This document shows, in pieces, positions 34,048 to 49,178 of a stretch of 64,000 nt of DNA. The notes under the pieces are model-generated. The model was not told the origin of the DNA. It was given only the letters and a program-made list of their open reading frames with translations, and did no database searches. Every line of letters starts with the position of its first letter. Position 1 is the first letter of the stretch. The DNA lies in contig NZ_CP041165.1 of the NCBI RefSeq assembly GCF_014905095.1, positions 1,612,001-1,676,000 on the forward strand. The letters are read 5' to 3'. Both the position numbers and the translations under genes were made by a program. Source of the stretch: Sulfurimonas marina (GTDB lineage: Bacteria; Campylobacterota; Campylobacteria; Campylobacterales; Sulfurimonadaceae).

Positions 34048-34824
34048 ATGAAAATTGATGGAAGATTCTGGCTGACAAAAGATGATAAAAGTTTTTTAGG
34101 TTCGGGAAGAATTGAACTCTTAGAAAAAATCGCACAAACAGGTTCTATTAATGCAGCTGCAAAAGAGATGAAAATGAGCTACAAAGCTGCGTGGGAACGC
34201 ATAAATTCTATGAATGAACTTGCAGACCATCCTATCATAAACAGAACTATCGGCGGTAAAGGGGGCGGTGGAACAAAACTCACCGATTATGCCTATGAGC
34301 TAATCAATACCTATAAAAAGCTCAATGAACTTCACCGTCAATTTATCAACAGATTCTCGGAAGCTGGAGATAATCCGGAACATCTGGCACAGATTTTAAA
34401 CCGTCACTTTTTAACAACAAGTGCAAGAAATCAGCTCCTTTCAACAATTACACAAATTACTATAAACAAAATCAATGCAATTATCTCTATGGAGATTAGC
34501 GGCGGTGGAGTGCTACACTCTTCTATTACAGCCAAATCTGCCGATAATATGCACCTAAGCGTTGGCGCTGAAGTATATGCAATTATAAAATCAAGCGATA
34601 TTGAGATCACTGCCAACAAACCGAAAGCTCAGGCTAATGTAAACATAATTGAAGGAAAAGTTGAATCACTCATCAGTAACGATACACACAGTGAAGTCTC
34701 TTTACAAATTAATGAAAAATACTCCCTTATCTCTTTACTTCCTAACGCAGAAGCGGAGAAATTACAACTCAATGCAAACGCTTATGCATTGATAGACTAC
34801 TCAAATATAATCATAGGATCATAA
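34048..34824 (+). CDS. modE: Molybdate-responsive regulator ModE
   Basis: About 258 residues, close to E. coli ModE (262). The N-terminal winged-helix domain shows the ModE pattern: LGSGRIELLEKIAQTGSINAAAKEMKMSYKAAWERINSMN, then GGKGGGGTKLT. Two TOBE/mop domains follow (about 120-190 and 195-258), which bind molybdate or tungstate in the dimer. An ATG at 34006 is in frame but would place the start upstream of the promoter TATAAT. ModE usually represses molybdate uptake genes when the oxyanion is plentiful. It lies 95 bp before the tonB cluster, whose first gene has a ModE-like operator. Confidence 0.92.
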   Translation: MKIDGRFWLTKDDKSFLGSGRIELLEKIAQTGSINAAAKEMKMSYKAAWERINSMNELADHPIINRTIGGKGGGGTKLTDYAYELINTYKKLNELHRQFINRFSEAGDNPEHLAQILNRHFLTTSARNQLLSTITQITINKINAIISMEISGGGVLHSSITAKSADNMHLSVGAEVYAIIKSSDIEITANKPKAQANVNIIEGKVESLISNDTHSEVSLQINEKYSLISLLPNAEAEKLQLNANAYALIDYSNIIIGS

Positions 34825-34866
34825 TTTTTCACTAAATAAAAGTTTAAGGTTTCTTTCTCTACAATT

Positions 34867-34890
34867 CGCTATATCTAAAAAAACATAATG
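34867..34890 (+). promoter_or_regulatory. Putative ModE operator upstream of tonB
   Basis: CGCTATAT (34867-34874), 8 bases, then ACATAATG (34883-34890). As I remember it, the E. coli modA operator has CGTTATAT, 8 bases, ACATAACG; each half here differs at one base and the spacing is identical. The site lies about 30 bases before the tonB start and right after modE. The right half overlaps an ATAATGATAA stretch that resembles half of a Fur box, so dual or Fur control is an alternative. Confidence 0.6.
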
Positions 34891-34919
34891 ATAAAAAACA
34901 AAAAAAGGACAGTTTAAAT

Positions 34920-35690
34920 ATGAGTACTCTCTCTTTAACTAGCGTTATATCATATAATATACAACAAAATAAATATTTAAAACTGAAAGCTTTTTTTATA
35001 TCGTTATTTTTACATCTACTACTGCTTGCACTCACTATAAAGCTGGCATCGGTACATCTTATTCAGCCAAAAGAGAGTGTGAAAGAGAGTACAACAGTTG
35101 TTTCTTTATCTTCATATCAGACAGTACAACCTAAAAAGGAGATTGTAAAAACCAAGCCTAAAAGTGTTCCCATACAGAAAAAGATAATAAAACAAAAACC
35201 TAAAAAGATTCAAAAAGTTGTTACAAAACCCATAGAGAAAAAAACTCTTCAGCAGGAGCAACCAAAACAAGCTGTTGTTCCTGCTGAGGCGTTTACGCCT
35301 CAAATTCCCGATACAGAGCAAAAGATTGAAGAGCGGAAAATACTAACACCGCAGAATTCTCCTTTGTCCGAACAGAAACGCCCTATGAAAGATCATGCCA
35401 AGAGAAACATAGGGAAAAGTGAGTTAGCGCTTATCCGTTCTTTAATCCAAAATGCTCTTAAATACCCCGCAATTGCCAAGAGATTGCACCTCGAAGGGGT
35501 TGTAGTTGTTTCCTTTTCTCTTTCCACAACCGGAGAAGTCTCAAACCTACAACTCGTTCAAAGCAGCGATAGCTCTGTATTGGATAAAAGAGCTCTTCAT
35601 ACAGTGTCGTCACTAGACGGAGAGTTTCCTCACATAAATCAAAAAGTTGATTTGAAAATTCCTATTGCATTTTCACTCCAACACTCATAA
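34920..35690 (+). CDS. TonB energy-transducing protein
   Basis: A 256-residue TonB. One N-terminal membrane helix (about residues 23-43; FFISLFLHLLLLALTIKLA with the conserved Ser and His that contact ExbB/ExbD), a periplasmic Lys/Pro/Gln-rich spacer (about 60-150) and a C-terminal TonB domain (about 170-254; YPAIAKRLHLEGVVVVSFSL, SSVLDKRALHTV). It carries proton-motive energy to outer-membrane receptors. No exbB or exbD gene lies near, so it must share an ExbBD pair from elsewhere. It is the first gene of a receptor/ABC cluster. Confidence 0.9.
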   Translation: MSTLSLTSVISYNIQQNKYLKLKAFFISLFLHLLLLALTIKLASVHLIQPKESVKESTTVVSLSSYQTVQPKKEIVKTKPKSVPIQKKIIKQKPKKIQKVVTKPIEKKTLQQEQPKQAVVPAEAFTPQIPDTEQKIEERKILTPQNSPLSEQKRPMKDHAKRNIGKSELALIRSLIQNALKYPAIAKRLHLEGVVVVSFSLSTTGEVSNLQLVQSSDSSVLDKRALHTVSSLDGEFPHINQKVDLKIPIAFSLQHS

Positions 35691-35701
35691 AGGAAATTTA
35701 A

Positions 35702-36724
35702 ATGAATTTTTTTATACCTCTGATGGTATTTCTATTGGCTGTCTCTCTACAGGCAAAAACTATAGAAGATTTTTATCATAAGCGAGTACAAACACCCGAT
35801 AAGGTTACAAAAGTATTTGGTTCTTCACCACCTATGAACTACCTTATCTATGCACTTAATCCAAAGAAAATGGTAGGACTTAACTTTAAAGCAAAAAACC
35901 CAAATAACTTTGCGACAAAAGAGTATCTAGACCCATATTTTTTATCTCTACCTGTCATTGGAACTTTCCACTCTACAGGAGCTGGCATCAACCTTGAAAC
36001 ACTTCTTATTAGCCGTCCCGATCTTATTTTAGTTTGGGCTGATGATATGATGGTTGCAACGGTTCAAAAGTCTATTAAACGTTCAAAGTTCCCAACTTTT
36101 ACGGTCCCTTTTAGAGAGATCGAAGATATACCCCGTGCCATCAAAGTAACTGCTGATACTATCGATGAACAAAAAAGAGGAAAACTCTTAAGTACTTATG
36201 CACAAAAGAGTATAGATGAGATCAAAAGCAAACTAGAAGGGGTCAAAACCACTAGATATTACTATGCAGAAGGTAATGACGGATTACAAACAGAGTGTGA
36301 CAAGTCATTTCATGTAGAAGCGATGAACTTTGCAGGAGGTGAAAATGTACACAAGTGCAAACAAAGTAACCTTAAAGGGCTCGAACAGATCAATATCGAA
36401 ACACTTTACAAATATAATCCAGAAGTGATCATCGCACAAAACCGTATGGTTTATAAAAACCTGTTTCACAATGAACTTTTTAACAACTTAGATGCAGTTA
36501 AAAACAAACGTGTTTATCTAGTACCAAATACACCTTTTAACTGGATAGATCGTCCACCCTCATTTATGAGAATTATCGGCATAGAGTGGCTTGCGAACAC
36601 TTTTCATCCAGGGGTGTATAACATAGACCTCAACAAACGTATTAAAGATTTTTACAAACTGTTTTTACAAGTAGAAATCACAGACAAACAAATTCAGACT
36701 ATATTAGGAGAAAATCAAAAATGA
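35702..36724 (+). CDS. Periplasmic metal/metallophore-binding protein (FecB/MolA-like)
   Basis: A 340-residue periplasmic protein with a signal peptide (about 1-18, ending LQA-K) and a two-lobed TroA/FecB-type fold. Visible segments are KVFGSSPPMNYLIYAL, RPDLILVWADD and the C-terminal RPPSFMRIIGIEWLANTFHP. Cys199 and Cys219, 20 apart, are matched in the second binding protein of the cluster. The RPPS-x-x-R-x-x-GI-x-WLA segment is common in class II ABC importers for iron complexes, cobalamin and molybdate (MolA). ModE control points to molybdate or tungstate. The stop overlaps the next receptor gene (ATGA). Confidence 0.82.
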   Translation: MNFFIPLMVFLLAVSLQAKTIEDFYHKRVQTPDKVTKVFGSSPPMNYLIYALNPKKMVGLNFKAKNPNNFATKEYLDPYFLSLPVIGTFHSTGAGINLETLLISRPDLILVWADDMMVATVQKSIKRSKFPTFTVPFREIEDIPRAIKVTADTIDEQKRGKLLSTYAQKSIDEIKSKLEGVKTTRYYYAEGNDGLQTECDKSFHVEAMNFAGGENVHKCKQSNLKGLEQINIETLYKYNPEVIIAQNRMVYKNLFHNELFNNLDAVKNKRVYLVPNTPFNWIDRPPSFMRIIGIEWLANTFHPGVYNIDLNKRIKDFYKLFLQVEITDKQIQTILGENQK

Positions 36725-38955
36725 AGTTAAAACTACCACTATTATCGCTTGTCGCGATTACCGCTTTACATGCAACACCGCTAAGTGTTGAAAAAATTGT
36801 TGTTAATTCCAACATAGAGGAGGAGGAAAACGGCCTCTATCTTTCAGATGAAAAGCAAGGTTCAAAACAGAATAAACAAACCTTTACACAAAAAAGTTTA
36901 TCTACACTTTCAACTCAAGCGAATATGAACCCTTACACGGTTATTCAGTTTTCACCATCTGTAAACTTTACACCTGTTGATCAAACAGGTTCAAACGAAC
37001 CAGCATATCACGATCCGATCCGTATCCGTGCTAAAAGTCAAACAGGTCCCGGTGGAGTTTATCTCATCAACGGAACTCCAATCTCAAGTAATCCAGGTGG
37101 GGGAAAACAGATGGTTGATCTTGAAAACATCTCATCTGTAGATCTGCATAAAGGGTACCTCAGTGTTAATAAAAACTTAGGATTTTCATCTTTGATCGGA
37201 AAAATAGATCTCAATATCCTAAAAGCAAAAAACAAAGCGGGTGCTCACCTTTCACAATCACTCGGGAGCAATAACTTTAGTAAAACTTTTGTACGTTTCG
37301 ATAGTGGGGCTATGGGTGATCTGCGTGTATTTGGTTCAGTGTCTGCTCTAAAAAACGACAAAACTAAAGGGGAAGGTGATCAACAAAGGTTTAACGGGAT
37401 GTTGGGGCTCTCTTATAAACCAAATGAGAGATTTTCATCAGAGCTTTATGTGATTAGAAATATTGACGAGCACCATAACTATGCAAGTTTAAGTTATGCC
37501 GAGGCAAAAGATCTAGACACTTATTTCTCAAAAGATTTTGCCACTACAAAACCGACTACGGCATCAAACAACTATTATGACTGGAACAAACAAGAGTTTT
37601 ATACAACTGCCGTAGTAGCAGATCTTACATATAAAGCCGGTAAAGATGATACTATCGTCTTAAAACCTTACTATAAAACAGACAAAGGACAATACTGGTT
37701 CAGTAAAACAAAAAACTCTACACCTATGGTTATGAACTGGCAGATGGAGCATGATCTTTATGGTGCAATCGCATCGTATGATCATAGTTTCGGTGACGCC
37801 GTAAATGCAAAAGTAGGATACTGGTACCACAAACAACTTCCTCCCGGACCTCCGACAGATCAGAAAAAATATGTTGTAGACGGCAACGGGGATCTTTCAT
37901 ATAAAGGGTATGGTATCTTAGCTGATACTTCATACCATACACTTCAGGCACCGTTTGTTGAACTTAGCGGTGATCTCGATAAGATTCACTACAGCGTAGG
38001 GCTTCAATACCAGACATTTACCCTTGCTTCAATCGATAGCTATACCGGTACTACAAGTGCTACAAGTATGGATCATGATGTTGCACTTACACAAGCTACA
38101 CTCGATTCATGGGCAAGTGTAGGTGAAAAGAAATTTAACACTTTTATCCCTGCACTTTATCTCTCATATGATCTTAGCTCTACAGATACAATCTATGTAG
38201 ACTACTCTAGAACATACGGATTTGATGTGAATCTTTTCCCGACATATGCAAGTAACAGAGCAGCTTTTGTCGTACAAGGGATTACACTCCAGTCTTTATG
38301 GGATGACTTAGAACTAGAAACATCTGACAACATCGATCTTGGAGCTCGTGTACAAACAGGAGCAGTTACACTAAACCCTAGTGTGTTTGTATCTTTTGTA
38401 AACAATAAACAGGCAAATATCTATGCAAACGGAGTAAACTATCCAGCGAATGTGGGTAAAGCACTCGGATATGGTGCTGAGTTTGCAGCTAACGGTGTAA
38501 TTACAGAGAGTTTAGAGTTTATCGCTTCACTTTCATACAACAGATACTACTTTACAGAGGATTTCCAAGCTTCTGCGACAGAGACGACAGATATTAAAGG
38601 GAACCAGCTTCCTGATGCACCTGAGTTTATGGCGAAAGGAGCACTCTCTTATACTCTCAAAGACTGGACATTTACACCAAGTGTGAGATACACGTCTAGC
38701 AGATACGGTGATGCGGCAAATACTGAAAAAATCGATGCCTTTACACTCGTTGATCTAGATGTTGCCTACAAAGCACCAAAAATGTTCGGCTCTAAAAATA
38801 CACTTTTTAGACTAACGGCAACAAACTTAACAAACCAAAAATATATCTCGACAATCATTGCAGCCGATAATGCACTTGCAGCTGACTCAACTAGCAGTAC
38901 ATATCAGACAGGTGCACCTTTTGGAATGTATGCAAGTTTAAATCTAAAATACTAA
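36721..38955 (+). CDS. TonB-dependent outer-membrane receptor 1
   Basis: A 744-residue receptor: signal peptide (about 1-18), TonB-box-like EKIVVNS (about 25-31), plug domain (about 55-165; IRIRAKSQTGPGGVYLINGTPI) and a 22-strand barrel ending in the outer-membrane signature ASLNLKY. The plug is atypical in reading PYTVIQFSPSVNFTPVD and is rich in Gly (GGGKQM). The substrate is not evident, but the gene lies between a binding-protein gene (4-bp overlap) and the permease gene (8 bp), so the receptor should feed that importer. Confidence 0.88.
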   Translation: MKLKLPLLSLVAITALHATPLSVEKIVVNSNIEEEENGLYLSDEKQGSKQNKQTFTQKSLSTLSTQANMNPYTVIQFSPSVNFTPVDQTGSNEPAYHDPIRIRAKSQTGPGGVYLINGTPISSNPGGGKQMVDLENISSVDLHKGYLSVNKNLGFSSLIGKIDLNILKAKNKAGAHLSQSLGSNNFSKTFVRFDSGAMGDLRVFGSVSALKNDKTKGEGDQQRFNGMLGLSYKPNERFSSELYVIRNIDEHHNYASLSYAEAKDLDTYFSKDFATTKPTTASNNYYDWNKQEFYTTAVVADLTYKAGKDDTIVLKPYYKTDKGQYWFSKTKNSTPMVMNWQMEHDLYGAIASYDHSFGDAVNAKVGYWYHKQLPPGPPTDQKKYVVDGNGDLSYKGYGILADTSYHTLQAPFVELSGDLDKIHYSVGLQYQTFTLASIDSYTGTTSATSMDHDVALTQATLDSWASVGEKKFNTFIPALYLSYDLSSTDTIYVDYSRTYGFDVNLFPTYASNRAAFVVQGITLQSLWDDLELETSDNIDLGARVQTGAVTLNPSVFVSFVNNKQANIYANGVNYPANVGKALGYGAEFAANGVITESLEFIASLSYNRYYFTEDFQASATETTDIKGNQLPDAPEFMAKGALSYTLKDWTFTPSVRYTSSRYGDAANTEKIDAFTLVDLDVAYKAPKMFGSKNTLFRLTATNLTNQKYISTIIAADNALAADSTSSTYQTGAPFGMYASLNLKY

Positions 38956-38963
38956 GGCTTTAA

Positions 38964-39992
38964 ATGACACACGTACATAACGGCAAGTTTATTTTTTTAG
39001 GGCTGACACTTTTACTTATAACAGCAACTCTCTTGCTGTTATGGGGGCAATATCCAATTGAGCTTAGTACTTTCCAAAGCTATATAAACTATAAGGTTTT
39101 CGGCATGGACACTACACTTGAAGCGGACACTATTACCCTTTTGGACAATATTATTTTAGAGATTCGCCTTCCCCGTATCCTTTTAGCAATCCTTATCGGT
39201 GCATCATTGGCAACCTCAGGAGCAGTATTTCAGGCGATGTTTGTCAACCCTCTTGTTTCACCGGGAATTTTAGGTGTGTTAGCGGGGGCATCTTTTGGAG
39301 CAGCACTTGGAATGTTACTCACTGAGGAGTGGTTTTTTATTCAAATACTTGCTTTTACTTTCGGGTTTATCGCTGTGGCTTTCTCAGTGCTGATAGGCTC
39401 TATGGTCAACAACTCCCGATCAAGCATTATGCTGGTTCTCGGCGGGGTTATTAGCGGCTCACTCTTTACCGCTTTTTTATCAGTTATCAAATATGTTGCA
39501 GATCCTTACTCTACCCTGCCCGCTATTGTTTACTGGCTAATGGGGAGTTTATCTATGGCTGAACTCGACGGAGTAGTGCTTGTAGCAATTCCGATGCTTA
39601 TCAGTATCTTTTCTATGGTACTTATGGGGAAATATTTCGATATTTTAAGCCTTGGGGACGAGGAAGCAAAAGCACTGGGTGTGAATGTAAAGATGATAAA
39701 GATATTAGCTATAGTACTCGCGACACTTGCTAGTTCACTTAGTGTTGTTATGGCGGGAATTATCGGCTGGATAGGGCTTATCATCCCACATATTATACGT
39801 ATGGCGATTGGTCCTTCACACGCTCTATTACTTCCTCTCTCAGCTATATTTGGCGGGCTGTTTTTGCTTCTGGCCGACTCTGTTTCCCGTCTGGCAATGA
39901 GTGTTGAGATCCCCATCGGGATACTTACATCACTTATCGGTATACCTATTTTTATTATTGTACTAAAGAATGCGAGGGCAGCATGGAACTAA
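38964..39992 (+). CDS. FecCD-type ABC importer permease
   Basis: A 342-residue integral membrane protein of the BtuC/FecCD family with about ten helices. Characteristic segments are IRLPRILLAILIGASLATSGAVFQAMFVNPLVSPGILGVLAGASFGAALG, LGDEEAKALGVNV (the cytoplasmic coupling helix region) and GIIGWIGLIIPHIIRMAIGPSHALLLPLSAIFGGLFLLLADS. It would form a homodimer, since a single permease gene is present. This class includes H. influenzae MolB. It overlaps the ATPase gene by 10 bp. Confidence 0.93.
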   Translation: MTHVHNGKFIFLGLTLLLITATLLLLWGQYPIELSTFQSYINYKVFGMDTTLEADTITLLDNIILEIRLPRILLAILIGASLATSGAVFQAMFVNPLVSPGILGVLAGASFGAALGMLLTEEWFFIQILAFTFGFIAVAFSVLIGSMVNNSRSSIMLVLGGVISGSLFTAFLSVIKYVADPYSTLPAIVYWLMGSLSMAELDGVVLVAIPMLISIFSMVLMGKYFDILSLGDEEAKALGVNVKMIKILAIVLATLASSLSVVMAGIIGWIGLIIPHIIRMAIGPSHALLLPLSAIFGGLFLLLADSVSRLAMSVEIPIGILTSLIGIPIFIIVLKNARAAWN

Positions 39993-40771
39993 AACCTATC
40001 ATAGAAGTAAAAAATCTCCACTTTTCCTATCCGAAATACAAAGTGCTTCACGGACTTGATTTTGAACTGCATCAAGGTGAAGTTGTCTCTTTGTTAGGGA
40101 AAAACGGATGTGGAAAAAGTACACTTATACGCCTTATTTTAGGTCTGCTGAAAAAGGATCAAGGGGAGATCTTACTACACGACAAAGATATAAAATCTTA
40201 TAAACAAAATGAGATAGCATCGCAAATAGCGTATATTCCTCAGTATCATAATGTCCCGTTTAACTATTCAGTACTCGATATGGTAGTTATGGGAAGAGTT
40301 TTTAAAATGGGACTATTTGCATCTCCTAGCAAACATGATATTGCCATGGCAAAAATAGCCTTGGAGAAAATCGGTATTGCGGATCTGCAAAACAAACCTT
40401 TTGGACAGCTCAGCGGCGGGCAAAAACAGATGGTTCTACTTGCCCGTGCACTGACCCAGGAAGCAAAAACTTTCATTATGGATGAACCGGTTTCTGGTCT
40501 TGATTACGGGAATCAAATCCGTTTGCTACAGATGATAAACAGCCTCGCGCAAGAGGGGTATACATTCCTAAAAACCACCCACTATCCTGATCATGCGATG
40601 ATGGTCTCTTCTCGTGTAGTGAGTATGAAAGATGGAAAGATTCTCTCTAGCGGTTCACCGACAGAGGTGATCACACCTGAGATGATCAATAATCTTTACA
40701 ATATAGAAGCAGAAATTGTACACCATAACAACAACCCGTTGTGTGTACCGAGCTTCTCAAAAGGTATATAA
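39983..40771 (+). CDS. ABC importer ATPase, FecE/MolC type
   Basis: A 262-residue ATPase partnered with the FecCD permease. Walker A is LGKNGCGKSTLI (about residues 37-48), the Q-loop in YIPQYHNVPF, signature LSGGQKQMVLLARAL, and Walker B FIMDEPVSGLDYG; the switch His is in KTTHYPDHA. PVSGLD replaces the common PTSHLD of iron-siderophore ATPases. It is 10 bp overlapped with the permease gene and its stop overlaps the start of the second binding-protein gene (TAATG). Confidence 0.92.
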   Translation: MELKPIIEVKNLHFSYPKYKVLHGLDFELHQGEVVSLLGKNGCGKSTLIRLILGLLKKDQGEILLHDKDIKSYKQNEIASQIAYIPQYHNVPFNYSVLDMVVMGRVFKMGLFASPSKHDIAMAKIALEKIGIADLQNKPFGQLSGGQKQMVLLARALTQEAKTFIMDEPVSGLDYGNQIRLLQMINSLAQEGYTFLKTTHYPDHAMMVSSRVVSMKDGKILSSGSPTEVITPEMINNLYNIEAEIVHHNNNPLCVPSFSKGI

Positions 40772-41745
40772 TGAAACTTTTACTACTGATAGCTATATTT
40801 TTATCACTGCATCTGCAAGCCAAAGTGATTGTTGATCATTATGGACGAAGTGTAAATGTTCCCGATAAAATAACTAAAATCTATGCAGCCTCACCGCCCC
40901 TTTCTATGAGTGTTCTGGCATTTGATCCAGATCTTTTAGCAGCTCTGAACACTCCATTTAGCGAAGAGCAAAAACCATATGTTGGAAGTGCCTATACAAA
41001 ACCCGTAGTGGGTGGGTTCTTCGGTCAGGGAAAATCTCCTAACCTTGAACTCTTAGCGGCTGCAAAACCTGATGTTATTATCGTATGGGGTGGAATGACA
41101 GGAGCAGATAAGATCCTTAAAAAACTTGAAGTTTTGGGGATCCCCGTTTTGTTTATAAAAAACAATACAATCTCCGATCTTATAGGACAGTTCAAACTCT
41201 ATGGGGAACTCAGCGGCAATACACAAAGAGCAAAAGAGCTGATCGAGTACACAAAACAAACACTATCACTGATAGACTCACTCCAAAGTAAGCTGCAACA
41301 ACAAAAGCAAAAAACTTTCTACTTTGCCGAGAGTATTGATGGTCTTCGCAGTGAGTGCCCGGGCTCATTTCACCTTGAACCTTTTTTATATACTGGGTCA
41401 AAAAATGCCCTTGATTGTAAAATGAGTTCAAACTACGGGATGGAGCAGATCTCTTTAGAGACAGTACTCTTATCCAAACCTGATCTCTTTATAGTTATGG
41501 AACCGCAGTTCTATACAAATATCTACAGAGACAAAAGGTTTGCTTCACTCAAAGCTGTAAAAAACAAAGAGGTATATCTCGTACCGTCAAAACCTTTTAA
41601 CTATATAACTCGTCCACCGTCATTCATGCGTTTAATGGGGATTCGATGGCTTATTCATACATTTTATCCGAATGTTTTGGATATTTCACTCAAAGAGGAA
41701 GAGAAAAAGTTTATGAAACTTTTTTTTAAAGGTTCAAATTTTTAA
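40771..41745 (+). CDS. Second periplasmic binding protein of the FecB/MolA-like type
   Basis: A 324-residue protein with signal peptide (about 1-17, ending LQA-K). The ATG at 40771 overlaps the ATPase stop; an in-frame GTG at 40741 would put ten extra residues before the signal and is rejected. It is a paralogue of the protein at 35702: shared segments include SPPLSMSVLAFDPDLL, YFAESIDGLRSEC and RPPSFMRLMGIRWLIHTFYP. Cys196 and Cys216 match the Cys pair of its paralogue in position and spacing. Two binding proteins for one permease suggest two forms of a ligand or two related ligands. Confidence 0.82.
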   Translation: MKLLLLIAIFLSLHLQAKVIVDHYGRSVNVPDKITKIYAASPPLSMSVLAFDPDLLAALNTPFSEEQKPYVGSAYTKPVVGGFFGQGKSPNLELLAAAKPDVIIVWGGMTGADKILKKLEVLGIPVLFIKNNTISDLIGQFKLYGELSGNTQRAKELIEYTKQTLSLIDSLQSKLQQQKQKTFYFAESIDGLRSECPGSFHLEPFLYTGSKNALDCKMSSNYGMEQISLETVLLSKPDLFIVMEPQFYTNIYRDKRFASLKAVKNKEVYLVPSKPFNYITRPPSFMRLMGIRWLIHTFYPNVLDISLKEEEKKFMKLFFKGSNF

Positions 41746-41752
41746 AACAAAT

Positions 41753-41776
41753 CGTTATATCAACAAATATACAAAG
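41753..41776 (+). promoter_or_regulatory. Second putative ModE operator, upstream of receptor 2
   Basis: CGTTATAT (41753-41760), 8 bases, then ATACAAAG (41769-41776). The left half is the exact consensus half-site as I remember it, and the right half matches at 5 of 8 positions. It fills most of the 41-bp gap between the second binding protein and receptor 2 and abuts the AAGGGG ribosome site, a position suited to repression. It could also arise by chance in AT-rich DNA. Confidence 0.45.
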
Positions 41777-41786
41777 GGGTATTTTA

Positions 41787-43820
41787 ATGAAAAAAACATA
41801 TTTTAGTCTTGTAACAGCATTGTTACTTACAACAACTTCACTTACTGCTGCAGAAACTATTCTAGAGACAATCGATGTAAACTCTGATGCAGATCATAGA
41901 GGCGATCTTCAATTAGAGAGTCCGACAAACTTATACAAAATTCAAAAAAGTACAAAAGCAGGCACAGAGGTTCTTGCACAAAAAGATATTGAAGCCTATA
42001 ATCCAAAAGATGTAATTGATCTTTTAAATAAAGCAACGGGGATGGATCTAAGTTATCATGGACGCCGTAGCCCATATGATCTAAAAATGCGCGGTAGCAG
42101 TAATATCACCTATATTATAGACGGGGCGATTCTTCCTCCCGCAGCTAGCCGTATGCTTTACAAATTTCCACTCATCGCTATTGAGGAGATCCAAATTGTA
42201 AGAAGTGCTACAGCTCTTTCAATCGCTCCATCTATAAATGTCGGTGCTTCTAACAGTGGTTCGGGTGTAAATATCGGATATATCATTATCCGTACAAAAC
42301 AACCTAAAAAGACCGAGGGGATCTTAAGCGCTTTTTTTGAAAAAGCTGTAAGTCAGCCTTATGCAAACGGCCAGTCGCTGTACACCGGGACACGTTTTGG
42401 AAGCAGTGATTCATGGAATGGATATATAGGTGCGATGGTTTCACGTTTCGATCGAAGAAGTAAAGAGACTTGGTTTGACGGGACTGAGAGTACATCGGGT
42501 ATGGTAAACGGTGGACTCAGTAACGGAAAATTTAACCTGAACTTTATGGCCTACAAAGATATAGGTACTTTAGAGATGCAAAGGGGTGTGAAACTTGACG
42601 GTACTCTCGATAATGCAAAATGGTATTACGATCCGCTCAAGACGACTCTTCTTTCAGTTGACGGGAGTATGGTTTGGAGCGAAGGACAAGTGACACTTTT
42701 TTCTCTTGCACATACACAATATGAACAGCTGGAGCATAATGAAAACTTTGTATTGCCTGCAGCTTCAACACGTAACTATGAAGAGAAAACACAATCATAC
42801 AGCTTAAGACACAACGCTACATTTGGAGATACAAAACTTCAGTTTGGCGGACAATATGTTGAGAGTGACGGATTTGGTTCTGATCTATTTAATCCGTATG
42901 TTAAATACGATACATCTATTAAAGGTGCATCGGCTTCGGTAGAACAAAGTTTATTTGACGGTGACTTGGTGGTTGATGCAGGATACAGATGGGATCAAAA
43001 ACACATAAAAAACTCTACAGCGGCAAAATCGGAAGCTTTAGCTAATCCTGATGCAAACAACGGTGTAGATTTAGCACCAGCGTCAATCATCACAGTTGGT
43101 GCCGTTTATAACATCTTAGATTCACAAACTTTAAGTGCACGTTACTTTTACGGGGACCAAGGGGTTTCAGGTGACTTTACATTAGAGACGCAAGACGGAA
43201 GCAAACTCGATCCTGAAAAACAAACACGTTATGAGATCTCACTCGATTCAAAGTTTACCCGCTCATTTAACTCTCTCATTACATATTTTGACACAAAAGT
43301 AGAGAATGAAAAACGTGCCACATCAAATACATACATTGTTGACGGAGAGGAGTATTACTACTACCAACAGGTAAATTCTCATACAAAAGGGCTCGAACTT
43401 ACACTCAAAGGGAAAATTGCCAAGACGACCAACTACAAGTTTTCATGGACAAGAATCCTCTCTAAAGAGACTCAAGATTTTGCAGGTGTAACGGATGAAG
43501 TGGGAGTTGTAGTGCCTGAAGATACTTTTACTGCCCTGCTCTCACACAGATGGGAGGATTACCTCTTTAATATTTCAGGGAAACAGGTAAGTAACTATAC
43601 AAGTTCTAAAAGCCCTATGGGACTCTCAAATGCAGACTTAGGTGACTATACACGTTTTGATGCCAATGTTGTAAAAGAGTTTAATTATTACGGAGTACCG
43701 ACTACTGCAAAACTCTACGGACGTAACCTTACAAACAACCATTACGCAACAAAATATACAACAGGTTACTACTTTGATCGAGGCCGTACACTCGGGTTAG
43801 AAGTAACTCTTAAATTTTAA
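41787..43820 (+). CDS. TonB-dependent outer-membrane receptor 2
   Basis: A 677-residue receptor with signal peptide (about 1-22), TonB-box-like ILETIDVNS (about 25-33), plug domain (about 55-175; DLLNKATGMDLSYHGRRSPYDLKMRGSSNITYIIDGAILPP) and a barrel ending GRTLGLEVTLKF with the terminal Phe. The plug/barrel junction reads GVNIGYIIIRTKQPKK. It is different enough from receptor 1 to suggest another ligand form. It has a strong AAGGGG ribosome site and a ModE-like site directly upstream, so it may be made from its own promoter as well as by read-through. Confidence 0.9.
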   Translation: MKKTYFSLVTALLLTTTSLTAAETILETIDVNSDADHRGDLQLESPTNLYKIQKSTKAGTEVLAQKDIEAYNPKDVIDLLNKATGMDLSYHGRRSPYDLKMRGSSNITYIIDGAILPPAASRMLYKFPLIAIEEIQIVRSATALSIAPSINVGASNSGSGVNIGYIIIRTKQPKKTEGILSAFFEKAVSQPYANGQSLYTGTRFGSSDSWNGYIGAMVSRFDRRSKETWFDGTESTSGMVNGGLSNGKFNLNFMAYKDIGTLEMQRGVKLDGTLDNAKWYYDPLKTTLLSVDGSMVWSEGQVTLFSLAHTQYEQLEHNENFVLPAASTRNYEEKTQSYSLRHNATFGDTKLQFGGQYVESDGFGSDLFNPYVKYDTSIKGASASVEQSLFDGDLVVDAGYRWDQKHIKNSTAAKSEALANPDANNGVDLAPASIITVGAVYNILDSQTLSARYFYGDQGVSGDFTLETQDGSKLDPEKQTRYEISLDSKFTRSFNSLITYFDTKVENEKRATSNTYIVDGEEYYYYQQVNSHTKGLELTLKGKIAKTTNYKFSWTRILSKETQDFAGVTDEVGVVVPEDTFTALLSHRWEDYLFNISGKQVSNYTSSKSPMGLSNADLGDYTRFDANVVKEFNYYGVPTTAKLYGRNLTNNHYATKYTTGYYFDRGRTLGLEVTLKF

Positions 43821-43851
43821 ACCGAAAAAATCCAAGGAAAGGAAAACTTCA

Positions 43852-44457
43852 ATGAATAAAACAGAAGAACAAAACAGCTGTCATAGCGGGAGGGTTATCT
43901 CCTTTACGCAGCTAAATAATGAGATAAAAGAGAAACCTCAGCCCCGTTTCGGCGGTGATGAGATACGTGTTGTAGATGCGATGATTGACATCATATACCC
44001 AAGCGTACCTTTTCCTTCAAATAAGATTTTTAAAACATTAGGTGCCGAGTATATCAGAAAGATGGTAGAACACCATCACCATCTACTGCTCAAAACAAAT
44101 ATAAAAACACTTTTTCCTCAACATCCAGAAGCGTTAAAGCTAGTGATAGATAGAAGTGTAGACTTCTTTGTCGAAGCACTCGGAGGTGGAGCAGTCTTTA
44201 CTTCTCAACATGGAGATCCTCATCTTAGACAGCGCCACTTTAAGATACCCATCAATGAAAACGACAGAGAGATCTGGCTTGCGATGTATAAAAAAACACT
44301 AAAAGAGCTAAAGTTTCCAAAAGAGCATTTAGAGGAGTTTTGGAACTGGATCGAACCCCTTTCAATCCGTATGATAAACCGTCGTACAAATACAAATGCG
44401 ATCAAACGCCACCACTGGCATGATGTAAAAACAGAACTGCTACAGGTCAATGTATGA
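43852..44457 (+). CDS. Truncated-haemoglobin-like protein with N-terminal extension
   Basis: A 201-residue protein. Residues about 60-185 resemble group II/III truncated globins: IRKMVEHHHHLLLKTNIKTLFP, then DFFVEALGGGAVFTSQHGDPHLRQRHFKIPINENDREIWLAMYKKTLKE, where PHLRQRHFKI holds the usual proximal-His region and EIWLAMY is the G-helix motif. The first 50 residues, with one Cys and His (QNSCHSG), are extra. Such globins bind O2 or NO; here it is co-translated with a flavin monooxygenase (ATGA overlap). A role in oxygen or NO handling, or haem-dependent chemistry on the ligand, is inference. Confidence 0.7.
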   Translation: MNKTEEQNSCHSGRVISFTQLNNEIKEKPQPRFGGDEIRVVDAMIDIIYPSVPFPSNKIFKTLGAEYIRKMVEHHHHLLLKTNIKTLFPQHPEALKLVIDRSVDFFVEALGGGAVFTSQHGDPHLRQRHFKIPINENDREIWLAMYKKTLKELKFPKEHLEEFWNWIEPLSIRMINRRTNTNAIKRHHWHDVKTELLQVNV

Positions 44458-45425
44458 AACTGGGAGTTTTTTTACTTACTGAAAACTATCATAAAAATCC
44501 TCACATAGCGATCTTAAACGATGTGGAACTAGCCGTTTATGCAGAATCTCTTGGATTTGATGAAGTGTGGTTTGCCGAACACCATTTCAACTCTTTTAGC
44601 GTAATTCCAAATCCGTCGTTGATGATGACATATGTAGCTGCCAAGACCTCTAAGATCCGTATAGGAAGTGCAGCTTTCTTAGCTCCGTTTTACCATCCGC
44701 TAAGACTTGCAGAAGAGATATCTACTCTAGATAACTTAAGTACAGGGAGAGTAAATGCAGGGTTTGCAAAAGGGGGTTTTGCACTTGATCTTAAAAACTT
44801 TCAGGCAAGTTCCGAGGAACTTCGAGTAAGACTCTTTAACAATGTTAAAGAGATTGATGAAACACTCTATAAAAAAGAGGAGTTTTACCCAAAACCGATC
44901 CAATCAAAAATCCCGTTTTATATCGCCACTTTTTCCTCTAAAGAGAGCATAGAGTTTGCAGCAAAAAACAACTATGGGCTTATGTTCTCCCAAGGGGCGA
45001 CGATTGAAGAGTGTGAAGAAGCGGTTGCATACTATAAACAACTCTCAGGTCTAGAGCCCGAAGTGGTACTTATGCGTGTATTTTATACCTCACATAATTC
45101 AGTTGAAGCGTATGAAAATGCAGTTGTGGCAACAGATCATTTTATAAAGTCGATGCGCTCTTTGAATGCTTTTAAAGAACAACCCAGCTTCAATCAAGCA
45201 AATTACACTGCCCTGCTCGATCAAAGGTACCAGTTTTTTGATGCAAAAAAATTTATGAGCTGTGCCGTTGTCGGTAATGTACATGAGTGTAAAGCTCAAA
45301 TTTTAGAAATTAAGAGGAGGATAAAAAATTTACATTTAGTTTTAAAACCTGCATCTGTCGATGCAAGACGAATAAGAACAACTTTAAAACTCTTTCATAA
45401 AGAGATTCAACCATATATTAAATAA
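44454..45425 (+). CDS. Luciferase-like flavin-dependent monooxygenase
   Basis: A 323-residue LLM-class protein with a TIM-barrel fold. Family segments are KLGVFLLTENY at the start, ESLGFDEVWFAEHHFN (about 30-45), SKIRIGSAAFLAPFYHPLRLAEEISTLDNLSTGRVNAGFAKGG (about 67-110) and FYIATFSSKESIEFAAKNNYGLM. These enzymes use reduced FMN and O2 to oxidise small organic molecules, and some cleave carbon-sulfur or chelator bonds. A plausible role is breakdown of an imported metal chelator (as EDTA/NTA monooxygenases do), but the substrate is unknown. It overlaps the globin gene by 4 bp. Confidence 0.85.
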   Translation: MKLGVFLLTENYHKNPHIAILNDVELAVYAESLGFDEVWFAEHHFNSFSVIPNPSLMMTYVAAKTSKIRIGSAAFLAPFYHPLRLAEEISTLDNLSTGRVNAGFAKGGFALDLKNFQASSEELRVRLFNNVKEIDETLYKKEEFYPKPIQSKIPFYIATFSSKESIEFAAKNNYGLMFSQGATIEECEEAVAYYKQLSGLEPEVVLMRVFYTSHNSVEAYENAVVATDHFIKSMRSLNAFKEQPSFNQANYTALLDQRYQFFDAKKFMSCAVVGNVHECKAQILEIKRRIKNLHLVLKPASVDARRIRTTLKLFHKEIQPYIK

Positions 45426-45437
45426 AAAGGAGAAAAA

Positions 45438-47408
45438 ATGAAAAAAAAGGTTTTATTATTATCTGCATTAACATCTATTGCGATGGCAGATAGTTTTGAA
45501 TTGGGTCAGGTAAGTGTAAAAAGCACTATTGACGATGTGAATGTTTTTGAGGAAAAAATCTCTTCAGATACAATATCTAAGCACGATTCTTTCAGTGTAA
45601 ATGAAGCGCTTGACAATGTTAGCGGTATTAATCAGGATATACAAGGTGGACGTGGAGAGTCAACACTCTACATCAGGGGTTTTGACTCTCGCCGTATCGG
45701 TGTTTTCATAGATGGTATCCCTGTCTATGTACCTTATGACGGGAACTTTGACTACGGCCGTTTTTTAACGGGTGATATCGGTGAAATTGATATCTCTAAA
45801 GGGTATTCTTCGGTTGTTTTCGGCGGTAATACTATGGGCGGTGTCGTAAACATCGTTTCGAAAAAACCGACAAAGGAGCTTGAAGGGAATGTGAAAGGGA
45901 CTATTGTTTTTGATTCTCAAATGAAAATGGCCAGACATATAGAGAACGTTAATGTAGGAACAAAACAACAAAACTTTTATGCACAGCTGAGTGCCTCTTA
46001 TTCTAAACAAGATCATTTCCGAATAAGCGATGAGTATGAAGCAACACCAACACAACCTGCAGGGGATCGCTTAAGAAGTGAAAACGAAGACAAAAAAGTA
46101 AGTTTAAAAGTTGGCTACATTGCAGATGATAAAAGTGAAGTAGCGATTACTTACGCAAACCAAAAAGGACAAAAGCAACAGCCTCCTGTAACAGATACGG
46201 ACTTTGCAAAAAACAAAAACTGGGACTGGCCCTACTGGAACAAAGAGACTATCTCTATAGTTGGACAGAAAAACTTTGATACAAGCTACATAAAAGCCCT
46301 TGCCTACTACGATACAAGTGAAAACTCTTTATACTCTTACGATGACAATACTTTTACCACTTTATCGCAGAAATGGGCGTGGAAAAGTAGATATGACGAC
46401 TACAGTTACGGTGCACGTTTGGAGTATGTAGTACAAAACGACAACAATATTTTCACAGCTGCAGCAAACTATAAAAAAGATGTGCATAGAGCTTACGATA
46501 TTTCAAAAACAGACTCTTCTGAAACTTTAGAAGAGAAATATGCCGATCATACGATATCTTTAGGGCTTGAAGACACTTACGATATCAATTCAAACTTCCA
46601 AATTTTAGGTGCGTTAAGTTACGATCAAAGAAGCGGTGATCAAATATATGACACAAATACCGACTATCAGGATATGTTGGAAAAAACGACACAAAGTAGT
46701 TTAAATCCGGAACTGGCACTCATTTATAAGATAGACAAAACTTCAAAAGTACGCCTGAGTGCCGCTTCTAAAACATATATGCCTTCTATGAAAGACAGAT
46801 ACTCAAGAAGACTGGGAACGGCAGTACCAAACCCTGATCTAAAAGATGAGAAATCGATCCATTATGAACTTAGCTATACAAAAAAAGAGGATAAATATTT
46901 TGCTCAGGTAAACACTTTTTATACAAAGGTAAAAGACACGATTCAAAGTGTCGTATGGGATCAAAATACCTCTTTAAATCAAAACCAAAATATAGGTACG
47001 TTTGATCATATCGGTGCCGAGATTGAACTTCGTTATAAATACGACACTCTGGAAGTTGGAGGGAACTACACATATCTCAAAATTAAAAACACAACGGATG
47101 CAGATGTGAAACTTGTCGATGTTCCTGAAAATCAAGTGTTTGCATTTATTCAAAAAGAACTTGTTGAAGGTTTCTCACTCTATGCAAACACAAAATATAG
47201 ACAAGGTGCATATGAGCAAAAACTGGATAAATCGTACGTTATCAACCCTTATATGCTCACTTTTGATCTTAAAGCTATCTACCAACCGACAAAAAATCTA
47301 CAGGCGCAAATCGGTGTTAAAAACTTAACCGATGAACTTATCCGCTACGATATGGCATACCCAATGGCCGGACGCGAATATTTCGCATCGTTGGATTATA
47401 AATTTTAA
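45438..47408 (+). CDS. TonB-dependent outer-membrane receptor 3
   Basis: A 656-residue receptor: signal peptide (about 1-17, ending AMA-D), TonB-box-like LGQVSVKS (about 22-29), plug (about 40-150; NEALDNVSGINQDIQGGRGESTLYIRGFDSRRIGVFIDGIPVYVPYDG) and barrel ending AGREYFASLDYKF. The plug is of the ferric-siderophore/haem style, with IRGFDSRR. It has a strong AAAGGAG ribosome site 12 bp after the monooxygenase gene. A third, distinct receptor in one cluster suggests uptake of several chelates. Confidence 0.9.
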   Translation: MKKKVLLLSALTSIAMADSFELGQVSVKSTIDDVNVFEEKISSDTISKHDSFSVNEALDNVSGINQDIQGGRGESTLYIRGFDSRRIGVFIDGIPVYVPYDGNFDYGRFLTGDIGEIDISKGYSSVVFGGNTMGGVVNIVSKKPTKELEGNVKGTIVFDSQMKMARHIENVNVGTKQQNFYAQLSASYSKQDHFRISDEYEATPTQPAGDRLRSENEDKKVSLKVGYIADDKSEVAITYANQKGQKQQPPVTDTDFAKNKNWDWPYWNKETISIVGQKNFDTSYIKALAYYDTSENSLYSYDDNTFTTLSQKWAWKSRYDDYSYGARLEYVVQNDNNIFTAAANYKKDVHRAYDISKTDSSETLEEKYADHTISLGLEDTYDINSNFQILGALSYDQRSGDQIYDTNTDYQDMLEKTTQSSLNPELALIYKIDKTSKVRLSAASKTYMPSMKDRYSRRLGTAVPNPDLKDEKSIHYELSYTKKEDKYFAQVNTFYTKVKDTIQSVVWDQNTSLNQNQNIGTFDHIGAEIELRYKYDTLEVGGNYTYLKIKNTTDADVKLVDVPENQVFAFIQKELVEGFSLYANTKYRQGAYEQKLDKSYVINPYMLTFDLKAIYQPTKNLQAQIGVKNLTDELIRYDMAYPMAGREYFASLDYKF

Positions 47409-47419
47409 AAGTTGTTACG

Positions 47420-48151
47420 ATGCAAAGGTCTCAAACATATATCGCGATAGATGATACAGACGAGATAGCATATTTCACCTCAACAGGTGAGATATGTGAA
47501 GAGCTTCGAGCACATCTTGATGCAAAAAATATTAAAACCACACCTGTTACAAGGCATCAACTCCTGCTAGATCATAGAGTGCCCTACACTTCACACAACA
47601 GTTCTATGTGTTTTAGCGCTGAGTTTAACCCTGTCGAGCTTGAAGAGTTTAAAGTATATGCTATAGCACACCTTACAAAACAATCAGCACCTTCATCAGC
47701 TCCAGCACTCTGTATATGTCAATATAAAGATATTGTGAGCAAAGAGGATCTTATCGAGTACGGTGTCAAGACAAAAAATACTCTTATGACACCCCATCAA
47801 GCATATATAACAGCCCAAAAACACAAAATATTCCTACTCTCCCTCAAAGAGAATGACCAAGGAGTTGTAGGAGCACTGGCAGGTGTAGCGCTAAGAATAT
47901 CAGGAAACGACGGTGCTATGAAAGGTCGTATAGATATAGGTCAGGAGTTCTCTACCTATGATGACATTGAAGCTCTCGAACATTTTGATGAGATTCTACT
48001 TATCAACGGTAAAAAAGTAAATCCCTCATACCCTATTTATACAAAAGAGTTTTTAAAGGGTGTATGTATAGACCACAAATGTGTGCTTCTTCTAGAAGAG
48101 GAGAACAACTTTTATAAACCCCTCAGCAGAAAACAGATTTTGGAGTATTGA
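47420..48151 (+). CDS. TiaS-like protein (IDDTD motif) of unknown function
   Basis: A 243-residue cytoplasmic protein. Its start (TYIAIDDTDEIAYFTSTGEICEELRAHL) and the segment LLLDHRVPYTSHNSSMCFS resemble the N-terminal catalytic domain of archaeal TiaS, which uses ATP to modify tRNA-Ile2 cytidine with agmatine. The C-terminal OB-fold and zinc ribbon of TiaS are absent. A GALAGVALRISGNDGAMKGR segment (about 158-177) is also Gly-rich and may bind nucleotide. As bacteria use TilS for that tRNA, a separate role tied to the metal-uptake cluster seems likelier; this is inference. It starts 11 bp after receptor 3. Confidence 0.55.
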   Translation: MQRSQTYIAIDDTDEIAYFTSTGEICEELRAHLDAKNIKTTPVTRHQLLLDHRVPYTSHNSSMCFSAEFNPVELEEFKVYAIAHLTKQSAPSSAPALCICQYKDIVSKEDLIEYGVKTKNTLMTPHQAYITAQKHKIFLLSLKENDQGVVGALAGVALRISGNDGAMKGRIDIGQEFSTYDDIEALEHFDEILLINGKKVNPSYPIYTKEFLKGVCIDHKCVLLLEEENNFYKPLSRKQILEY

Positions 48152-48153
48152 AA

Positions 48154-48360
48154 ATGTTTGATAGTAACAATAACTTTCTTTATGGAAAAGATGATCAATG
48201 CAATGCTCTTCTAATGGCGACGAGATGTCACAGTTTTTTACTCGACAGTGATGAGAATGAGCACTCAAGCAATATAGCAAGGTCGTGTTACAACTGTACC
48301 TACAGAAAATGGACACGTGAAAGTTTTATCTGTGTCATAAAAAATGCAGAGAATATATAA
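48154..48360 (+). CDS. Small Cys-rich protein, 68 residues
   Basis: A short protein with five Cys, including CYNC (about residues 45-48), plus DDQC, ATRC and FIC. This pattern suggests a zinc or iron-sulfur site. A TTG at 48148 is in frame, but the ATG at 48154 has GGAG 8 bases upstream, so I use it. It overlaps no signal sequence and should be cytoplasmic. It sits between the TiaS-like and methyltransferase genes. No family is recognised; a metal chaperone or adaptor role is guesswork. Confidence 0.55.
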   Translation: MFDSNNNFLYGKDDQCNALLMATRCHSFLLDSDENEHSSNIARSCYNCTYRKWTRESFICVIKNAENI

Positions 48361-48377
48361 ATTTAAAAGGATAAAAA

Positions 48378-49178
48378 ATGTTTTTAGAACCGATAGATTT
48401 TGCTCAGATGTATGTTAATCATAAAAAAAGCACCATCTTTAAAGGAAAAGATCATAATGAATGGGATAAAAAGTCAAAAGAGTTAGCCCCCTCTATGCAA
48501 AAGTCGGCGTATGTCGACGAGTTTATCTCGAAAATGGAGATAGACCCAAATGATGTGATCTTAGATATCGGATGTGGCCCAGGTACTTTAGCTATTCCTC
48601 TGGCAAAAAAAGCAAAACACGTCATAGCGATCGATTTTTCTAAATCTATGCTTGAAGAGCTTGAAAAATATGCAAAAAAAGAGGGAATAGAGAATATTTC
48701 TACCTATCATATAGGATGGGATGACGACTGGTCGTTTTTACCAGACATCGATATTGCCGTTGCTTCACGAAGCATGGAGGTGAGTGATATGCAAAGTGCT
48801 CTCTTTAAGATGAGCTATATTGCAAAAAAAGCATGTTATCTGACATATAAAGTTGGCGGGAGCTATGTTGATATGGATATTGTCAACTATATTCAAAAGC
48901 CGATTGTGCAAAAACCGGATTATTGGTATATTCCCCTTATTCTTTACACAAAACAGTATCTTGCAAAGATCGACTATATTGCAACTAAAGGGAGTATAAA
49001 AAGCTATACAAAAGAGAGCTTTGTCGAATCTCTCCGTTGGAGTTTCGGCTCTCTTACGGAAGCTGAAGAGGAAAAAGCAAAAGAGTACTATGAGCACTTT
49101 ATCGCTAAAGAACAAAAACATCCCAAACCTTTTTCATGGGCATTTATAAGCTGGAAGACAACCCCTCTGGAACTCTAA
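48378..49178 (+). CDS. Class I SAM-dependent methyltransferase
   Basis: A 266-residue Rossmann-fold methyltransferase. The SAM motif I is ILDIGCGPGTLAIPLAKKAK (about residues 55-74), motif post-I VIAIDFSKSML and motif II/III DIDIAVASRSMEV. The C-terminal 100 residues carry Tyr- and Trp-rich segments (KPDYWYIPLILYTKQYLAKIDYIA) that probably bind substrate. From memory, related methyltransferases often accompany FecCD-type importers in anaerobes, but the substrate is unknown. It is the last gene of the cluster, 17 bp after the Cys-rich gene. Confidence 0.82.
   Translation: MFLEPIDFAQMYVNHKKSTIFKGKDHNEWDKKSKELAPSMQKSAYVDEFISKMEIDPNDVILDIGCGPGTLAIPLAKKAKHVIAIDFSKSMLEELEKYAKKEGIENISTYHIGWDDDWSFLPDIDIAVASRSMEVSDMQSALFKMSYIAKKACYLTYKVGGSYVDMDIVNYIQKPIVQKPDYWYIPLILYTKQYLAKIDYIATKGSIKSYTKESFVESLRWSFGSLTEAEEEKAKEYYEHFIAKEQKHPKPFSWAFISWKTTPLEL

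Follow-up and report, generated by a model that had tools for sequence, protein, structure and literature searches.

A ModE-linked, TonB-energised gene cluster of Sulfurimonas marina with a probable role in molybdenum import

Textbook molybdate uptake has no active outer-membrane step, and the usual systems are ModABC, WtpABC and TupABC. In Sulfurimonas marina the gene of the regulator ModE is followed on the same strand by tonB, three genes for TonB-dependent receptors (TBDRs) and the genes of an ABC importer, which raises the question of what this cluster imports and whether ModE controls it. We analysed the cluster within a window of 64,000 nucleotides (contig NZ_CP041165.1, forward-strand positions 1,612,001 to 1,676,000), which is part of a single 2.26 Mb contig (2,261 kb). 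The cluster spans positions 34048-49178 of the window (~15.1 kb). Judging from the sequence comparisons below, we consider it likely, with a probability of about 0.8, that it encodes a TonB-energised import system for molybdenum (Mo), possibly also for tungsten (W), which ModE represses when Mo is sufficient.

Gene content and ModE-like boxes

All genes of the cluster are open reading frames (ORFs) on the + strand. They comprise modE, tonB, two Peripla_BP_2 proteins (the substrate-binding proteins SBP1 and SBP2), one FecCD permease, one ATPase, three TBDRs and five accessory genes. Together with the candidate ModE boxes they are arranged as follows:

34048..34824, + strand: modE, full length, with a helix-turn-helix and two TOBE/Mop domains (TIGR00637, TOBE repeats)
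34865..34892, no strand: ModE-like box 1 in the modE-tonB gap, score 16.5/22
34920..35690, + strand: tonB (TonB_C, PF03544)
34941..34968, no strand: ModE-like box 2 at the 5' end of the tonB ORF, score 16.5/22
35702..36724, + strand: SBP1, a MolA-related Peripla_BP_2 binding protein (Pfam and PDB sequence matches)
36721..38955, + strand: TBDR1 (PF00593; TIGR01783 below cut-off)
38964..39992, + strand: FecCD permease, closest solved structure HI1471 (MolB) (Pfam, PDB sequence match)
39983..40771, + strand: ABC ATPase, HI1470/MolC among the best solved matches (Pfam, PDB sequence match)
40771..41745, + strand: SBP2, the second Peripla_BP_2 protein (the ORF opens with GTG at 40741; ATG at 40771 is the likelier start)
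41751..41778, no strand: ModE-like box 3 in the SBP2-TBDR2 gap, score 16.5/22
41787..43820, + strand: TBDR2 (PF07715 plug)
43852..44457, + strand: truncated-type globin (PF01152), closest PDB chain 4nk1 (E=1.2e-44)
44454..45425, + strand: luciferase-like flavin monooxygenase (LLM; PF00296)
45438..47408, + strand: TBDR3 (PF07715 and PF00593)
47420..48151, + strand: relative of methanogenesis marker protein 11 (mmp11-like; TIGR03280 E=1.5e-8, below cut-off)
48154..48360, + strand: small Cys-containing protein of 68 aa (CYNCTYRKW), an ORF whose counterparts adjoin the mmp11-like gene in relatives
48378..49178, + strand: class I S-adenosylmethionine (SAM) methyltransferase (MTase; PF13649), a recurrent TBDR/SBP/FecCD partner in relatives

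The intergenic gaps range from -10 to 41 bp, with the exception of the modE-tonB gap (95 bp), and two of the three box positions coincide with the largest internal gaps. ModE scored 102.2 bits against TIGR00637 (cut-off 98.5) and carries two TOBE repeats, which identifies it as a full-length ModE; we preferred the start at 34048 over 34006 because the relatives compared (L054 and L056; loci are given by L numbers) open with MKIDGRFWL. TonB together with plug and barrel receptors (PF03544, PF07715, PF00593) indicates TonB-dependent uptake, where at the threshold used TBDR1 was matched by the barrel model only and TBDR2 by the plug model only. Leader-like N-termini were recognised by eye. An earlier note, made from the letters of the window alone, had described this gene content, the single-strand order with overlaps or short gaps and a pair of paralogous binding proteins. 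All of this was recovered, and SBP1 and SBP2 are 38% identical.

Candidate ModE sites were scored against the E. coli-type consensus ATCGnTATATA-N6-TATATAnCGAT (PMC545781), for which the maximum score is 22. The three top-scoring sites of the window, tied at 16.5, all lie inside the cluster, while the top score in five Markov shuffles of the window was 16.0. E. coli-type boxes thus stand before genes at 34865, 34941 and 41751, though in imperfect form. A search of the whole genome for the core with at most two mismatches returned 8 sites, three of them in the cluster. Four more lie at or near other Mo genes and one lies elsewhere:

site whose end lies 20 bp in front of modA in a modA-modD pair
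site ~410 bp upstream of the same modA, within the neighbouring ORF
site in the nifK-mop gap (L085)
site before an OprD-family porin-mop-modB-modC operon (L087)
site at position 1164672, without evident link to Mo

By simple arithmetic the chance that 3 of 8 random sites fall within 15.1 kb of 2,261 kb is ~2 in 100,000.

Two arrangements outside the window can be noted here. The OprD-family porin with the ModE-like box in front heads mop-modB-modC at L087:7276-10779 (G000:C1:2038276-2041779), and a related porin ORF was found near the system in five Campylobacterota loci, for example among the mod genes of L052; such a porin is a possible second outer-membrane route for molybdate. The modA gene followed by a modD-like quinolinate phosphoribosyltransferase (QPRTase) gene lies at G000:C1:1109817-1111414 (L238), apart from both mop-modB-modC and modE, so the Mo genes of this genome are scattered.

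Related clusters and their molybdenum context

Relatives of SBP2 (E<=1e-30) were present in 52 of the 298 genomes of the phylum Campylobacterota and in 16 of its 58 genera. The earlier note had proposed a survey of the modE linkage in relatives and had named a lack of linkage as evidence against Mo or W import under ModE control. In 23/52 genomes, from 7/16 genera, the SBP had a modE gene no more than 10 kb away. At the level of the permease, modE lay within 10 kb of 21/49 FecCD genes that neighbour the SBP family, compared to only 2/89 other FecCD genes of the same 52 genomes. This count covers the 138 FecCD genes listed at no less than 131 bits and 89 ModE matches of at least 51 bits; lower and unlisted FecCD genes as well as the lower ModE matches (<=23.5 bits) were dropped. 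A profile scan of named genomes gave 136 confirmed matches. The best 80 of the 136, in 77 loci, include Sulfurospirillum, Sulfurimonas, Sulfuricurvum and Sulfurovum among the Campylobacterota and further Desulfobulbus, Desulfosarcina, Geobacter, Syntrophorhabdus and single metagenome-assembled genomes (MAGs) of Spirochaetes, Nitrospirales and Rhodoferax. The system is also present in a laboratory strain, Sulfurospirillum diekertiae (L091).

The boxes recur in these loci. With a threshold of 16.5, the 51 Campylobacterota loci yielded 60 hits, spread over 28 of the loci (mean of the permuted motif 8.8), and the 49 other loci yielded 30 hits, spread over 18 (permuted mean 1.7); none of 200 permuted motifs reached either total. 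In 20 control FecCD loci there were 2 hits against a permuted mean of 4.2; the controls were a random choice, with one locus for each genome, among 42 of the 89 other FecCD genes and were not sorted by cargo. The box count excluded L067 and L071 (each a further locus from a genome that was already represented), L081, L083 and L090 (taken for the mmp11-like gene, without an SBP), L207 and the loci of the own genome. The 51 Campylobacterota loci of the box totals differ from the 57 labelled loci that were used for gene labels and upstream shares. L093 (titled Proteobacteria) and L133 (titled bacterium) were grouped with the Campylobacterota by similarity. Most of the 49 other loci carry the title Deltaproteobacteria or Proteobacteria. 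Spirochaetes, Nitrospirales and Rhodoferax are represented by single MAGs, and in three pairs both loci come from the same assembly (L106/L122, L121/L143, L144/L150).

Directly upstream of a labelled gene we observed 67/84 hits in the 57 Campylobacterota loci (expected share 0.20) and 20/30 in the 49 other loci (expected share 0.15). The genes downstream of hits are mostly globin, modE, SBP, tonB, exbB, TBDR and methyltransferase. Among the boxes listed, at most eight for each locus, those of L059, L132, L136 and L137 include boxes at the 5' end of tonB, the same place as box 2. Hits also occur where no modE was labelled in the stretch, e.g. in L052, L053, L061, L070 and L077. ModE control, as the earlier note had suggested it, is thus consistent with boxes in the cluster, at other Mo genes of the genome and in related clusters.

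Genes of Mo metabolism adjoin the system in several relatives. Gene labels are the best phmmer hit above 35 bits to chosen reference proteins; the reference names modB, modC, mop and nifD/K were first assigned by eye, and ten proteins were checked with Pfam, among them the oxidoreductase of L066 and mod, nif, mop and exb proteins of L060, L061, L085 and L238. In L060 and L063 modE-modA-mop-modB-modC stand on the same strand as the system, and in L069 they are divergent from it. In L053 modB and modC adjoin the system, and in L061 it is preceded by nifH-D-K, mop, modA, mop, modB and modC. L066 and L088 have a molybdopterin oxidoreductase nearby, which we read as formate dehydrogenase-like. Among the carriers of the system nifH scored above its cut-off in 21/52 genomes, compared to 24/246 of the others. 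Within 8 kb of the 49 loci outside the Campylobacterota we encountered FmdE (22/49), DUF364 (16/49), a XRE regulator with a PBP_like domain (8/49) and MoeA (5/49), each family being confirmed on one example. Two loci also carry RNA elements of the Mo cofactor (Moco): in L149 two tandem Moco-II RNAs (12310-12429) precede a methyltransferase-TBDR-SBP-FecCD-ATPase operon, and in L147 a Moco riboswitch lies between the SBP and a modA-like gene. The 64 kb window itself gave no match to RNA families.

Importer, mechanism and known systems

We then compared the importer with solved structures. The nearest relative of the permease is HI1471 (2nq2_A, E=1.7e-60, 208 bits), with a lead of 44 bits over the next structure (164 bits). 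For the ATPase HI1470 (2nq2_C, E=1.2e-42) came second, just behind a eukaryotic exporter. The SBP profile matched 4pag (E=2.8e-121), a periplasmic binding protein that by sequence is itself a member of the family, then 4ovk, 4hn9 and MolA (3psa, E=1.4e-32), and for SBP1 alone MolA was the third PDB match. Judging from these matches, the inner-membrane part appears to resemble MolBCA (HI1470-1472), the class II molybdate/tungstate importer of H. influenzae, to which the present cluster adds TonB, three TBDRs, a second SBP, ModE with its boxes and the accessory enzymes. In the labelled loci SBP1 was followed by TBDR1 19 times, and among the adjacency types listed TBDR2 stood beside an SBP 23 times. 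These recurrent pairs suggest that one importer serves several receptors. Import of Mo or W, the central proposal of the earlier note, thus gained support from the boxes, the modE linkage, the mod, nif and Mo-enzyme neighbours and the MolB/MolA kinship.

The system would work as follows. Three outer-membrane receptors, driven by TonB, would carry scarce Mo species into the periplasm, where the two paralogous SBPs, often encoded beside particular receptors, would pass the cargo to one shared class II importer of the BtuCD/MolBC type. In the cytoplasm the globin and the flavin monooxygenase, the methyltransferase and the mmp11-like protein may process the cargo such that molybdate is freed, which would serve nitrogenase and Moco enzymes. 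Rising molybdate would load ModE, and loaded ModE would bind the boxes before tonB and TBDR2. Of this picture, the sequence comparisons show the gene content, the MolB/MolA kinship, the boxes with their enrichment and the linkage to mod, nif and molybdopterin-enzyme genes; that control acts by repression, that the cargo is Mo and that it is processed are inferred.

Several observations weigh against this reading. The boxes of the cluster itself are imperfect (16.5/22), and the reversed ModE pattern also yields 8 sites in the own genome. The argument therefore rests on the positions of the boxes and not on their number, and an enriched number of boxes in this genome was rejected. In 29/52 genomes there is no modE within 10 kb of the SBP (some contigs are short), and related genomes are not independent samples. 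In family f3, probably Campylobacteraceae, only 5/21 loci had a hit, one each and four of identical sequence, compared to 55 hits in the 30 remaining Campylobacterota loci (23/30 with a hit). As f3 largely lacks E. coli-type boxes, ModE control of that kind is unsupported for this family. No Moco element was detected in 19/21 non-Campylobacterota loci searched for RNA families. MolA is only the fourth match of the SBP profile, just behind 4hn9, which is termed an iron-complex binder. Finally, modB was present in 52/52 carriers examined. Hence the system adds to ModABC and is not the sole Mo route, and we rejected the idea that it replaces ModABC.

Several known systems can be set beside the cluster. 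ModABC under ModE shares regulator and box type with it and adjoins it in several relatives. However, ModABC is a class I system without an outer-membrane receptor, and in the own genome modB lies elsewhere (L087). MolBC-A of H. influenzae is a low-affinity route that moves the bare oxyanion, MolA binding both molybdate and tungstate, and the factor behind the molybdate-dependent repression of molB is described as unknown in the part of PMC4031551 that we drew on. A survey counts ModABC, WtpABC and TupABC as the known high-affinity prokaryotic ABC systems for Mo and W and adds that more may exist (PMC6147048). The genome paper of Azotobacter chroococcum describes a TonB receptor and ABC genes (Achr_39320-39290) beside modE/G and modABC and suggests a molybdate receptor; this is one locus, presented in the part consulted without regulatory sites or a survey, and we liken it to the cluster by its described gene content. 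In A. vinelandii, VnfA1-dependent TonB receptor/ABC operons (class B promoters) are switched by the supply of Mo and vanadium (V) (PMC9542535). They share TBDR and ABC genes under Mo/V supply with the cluster but are activated by an enhancer-binding protein, and their receptors are called siderophore receptors. For P. carbinolicus TonB channels are reported near cobalamin and molybdopterin riboswitches (PMC3543383), and the portion of PMC545781 used here reports deltaproteobacterial ModE sites only at mod operons. Our literature search (titles, abstract starts and some passages; few subscription journals covered) returned no description of the cluster or of its ModE control.

If many Campylobacterota and deltaproteobacterial genomes encode a ModE-controlled active outer-membrane step, Mo limitation of nitrogen fixation and of formate metabolism would have to be viewed differently for sulfidic habitats poor in Mo. 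Such a step would also explain what is done by genes that match models of siderophore, heme or B12 transporters most closely.

The form of the cargo

As a rule, TonB-dependent receptors serve ligands that are large or very scarce. The cargo may be Mo (or W) on an organic chelator or in a thio-complex (a molybdophore or xeno-chelate), with a ligand that the accessory enzymes modify or break in the cytoplasm. We give this a substantial chance, a little short of even; it is a sharper version of Mo import and not its opposite. Enzymes for organic substrates recur in the labelled loci: the MTase label was found in 29/57 Campylobacterota and 29/49 other loci, the LLM label in 29/57 and 1/49, and a radical-SAM/Peripla_BP_2 label in 4/57 and 13/49. 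Both domains share a single ORF in 4 Campylobacterota and 7 other loci, the remaining 6 other loci having one part only, and we corrected an initial count of 13/49 fusions to 7/49 accordingly. In the fusion (e.g. L066:16477-18258) a radical SAM domain, nearest to the AmmeMemoRadiSam model but below its cut-off, is followed by Peripla_BP_2, and the gene lies beside transporter genes, so that it looks as if it handled an imported ligand. The lineage-dependent enzymes may represent two alternative routes for processing an organic ligand after its import. DUF364, seen above in 16/49 other loci, is annotated as 'putative heavy-metal chelation'. On the other side, the domains of the cluster proteins included no recognised metallophore synthesis genes in Pfam/TIGRFAM-type family scans, 20/57 Campylobacterota and 35/49 other loci carry none of the LLM, globin and radical-SAM labels within the stretch, and MolBC-A, the nearest transporter that has been characterised, carries the oxyanion in bare form (PMC4031551).

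That the cargo is bare molybdate or tungstate, imported as by MolBCA with TonB energy used only on account of extreme scarcity, such as in sulfidic water, is possible, if somewhat doubtful. The 44-bit lead of HI1471 and the binding of both oxyanions by MolA argue for it. The recurrent enzymes would be left unexplained, however. Molybdate is also expected to pass porins, and an OprD-type porin with a ModE-like box already heads mop-modB-modC.

Taking the chelate further, we tentatively suggest an unnamed, widespread molybdophore-type pathway of Campylobacterota and deltaproteobacteria, about which we are rather more sceptical than hopeful. An organic or thio-complex of Mo or W would enter via ModE-controlled TonB receptors and be freed inside by interchangeable modules, namely, in microaerophiles, a globin/flavin-monooxygenase pair that uses O2 and, in anaerobes, a radical-SAM enzyme that often carries a fused cargo-binding domain.

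Ordinary uptake of iron-siderophores, heme, nickel or cobalamin by genes that merely lie behind modE is improbable. In the family models TBDR1 and TBDR3 come out as siderophore/heme receptor types, though with every score below the cut-off, and the SBP profile also matches FhuD, BtuF and CeuE-type chains in sequence. Against this stand the ModE boxes found in the cluster and in related clusters, the linkage to mod, nif, moeA and fmdE and the low modE linkage of the other FecCD genes. The iron/Fur alternative of the earlier note found no backing either: with the single 19-bp consensus tried, no Fur box in the cluster exceeded the permuted motifs (best 13/18, equal to the permuted median). About equally improbable is a role of the cluster, under ModE, in the uptake of iron or of another metal required alongside Mo, for instance when the cofactor of nitrogenase is assembled. 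The enrichment of nifH among carriers speaks for it, but 31/52 of them lack nifH above cut-off, and a demand for iron should add the Fur control for which that consensus gave no box.

The remaining observations concern individual proteins and the flanks. The closest chain of the globin, 4nk1, is presumably Hell's Gate globin IV with phosphate at the heme, which raises the possibility that the globin binds an oxyanion; we kept this out of our claim. The mmp11-like protein reached 34.1 bits against TIGR03280 (cut-off 255.8) and is therefore a relative rather than a member of that family, aligning at the motifs IDDTDE...RHQL...YTSHNSSMC. Its sole match among PDB sequences was at chance level (E=1.2), and its predicted structure, computed from two sequences, had a mean pLDDT of 50.4. 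The 68-aa protein had no Pfam match, and labelled counterparts lie near the mmp11-like gene in L055, L060, L061, L065, L074, L133 and others. The cluster is flanked by surE, beside modE on the opposite strand, and past the methyltransferase by a gene of the methyl-accepting chemotaxis protein (MCP) type and then rho. In this MCP-type protein (49211-50311) the signalling domain covers only profile positions 22-101 of 172, as if the C-terminus were shortened.

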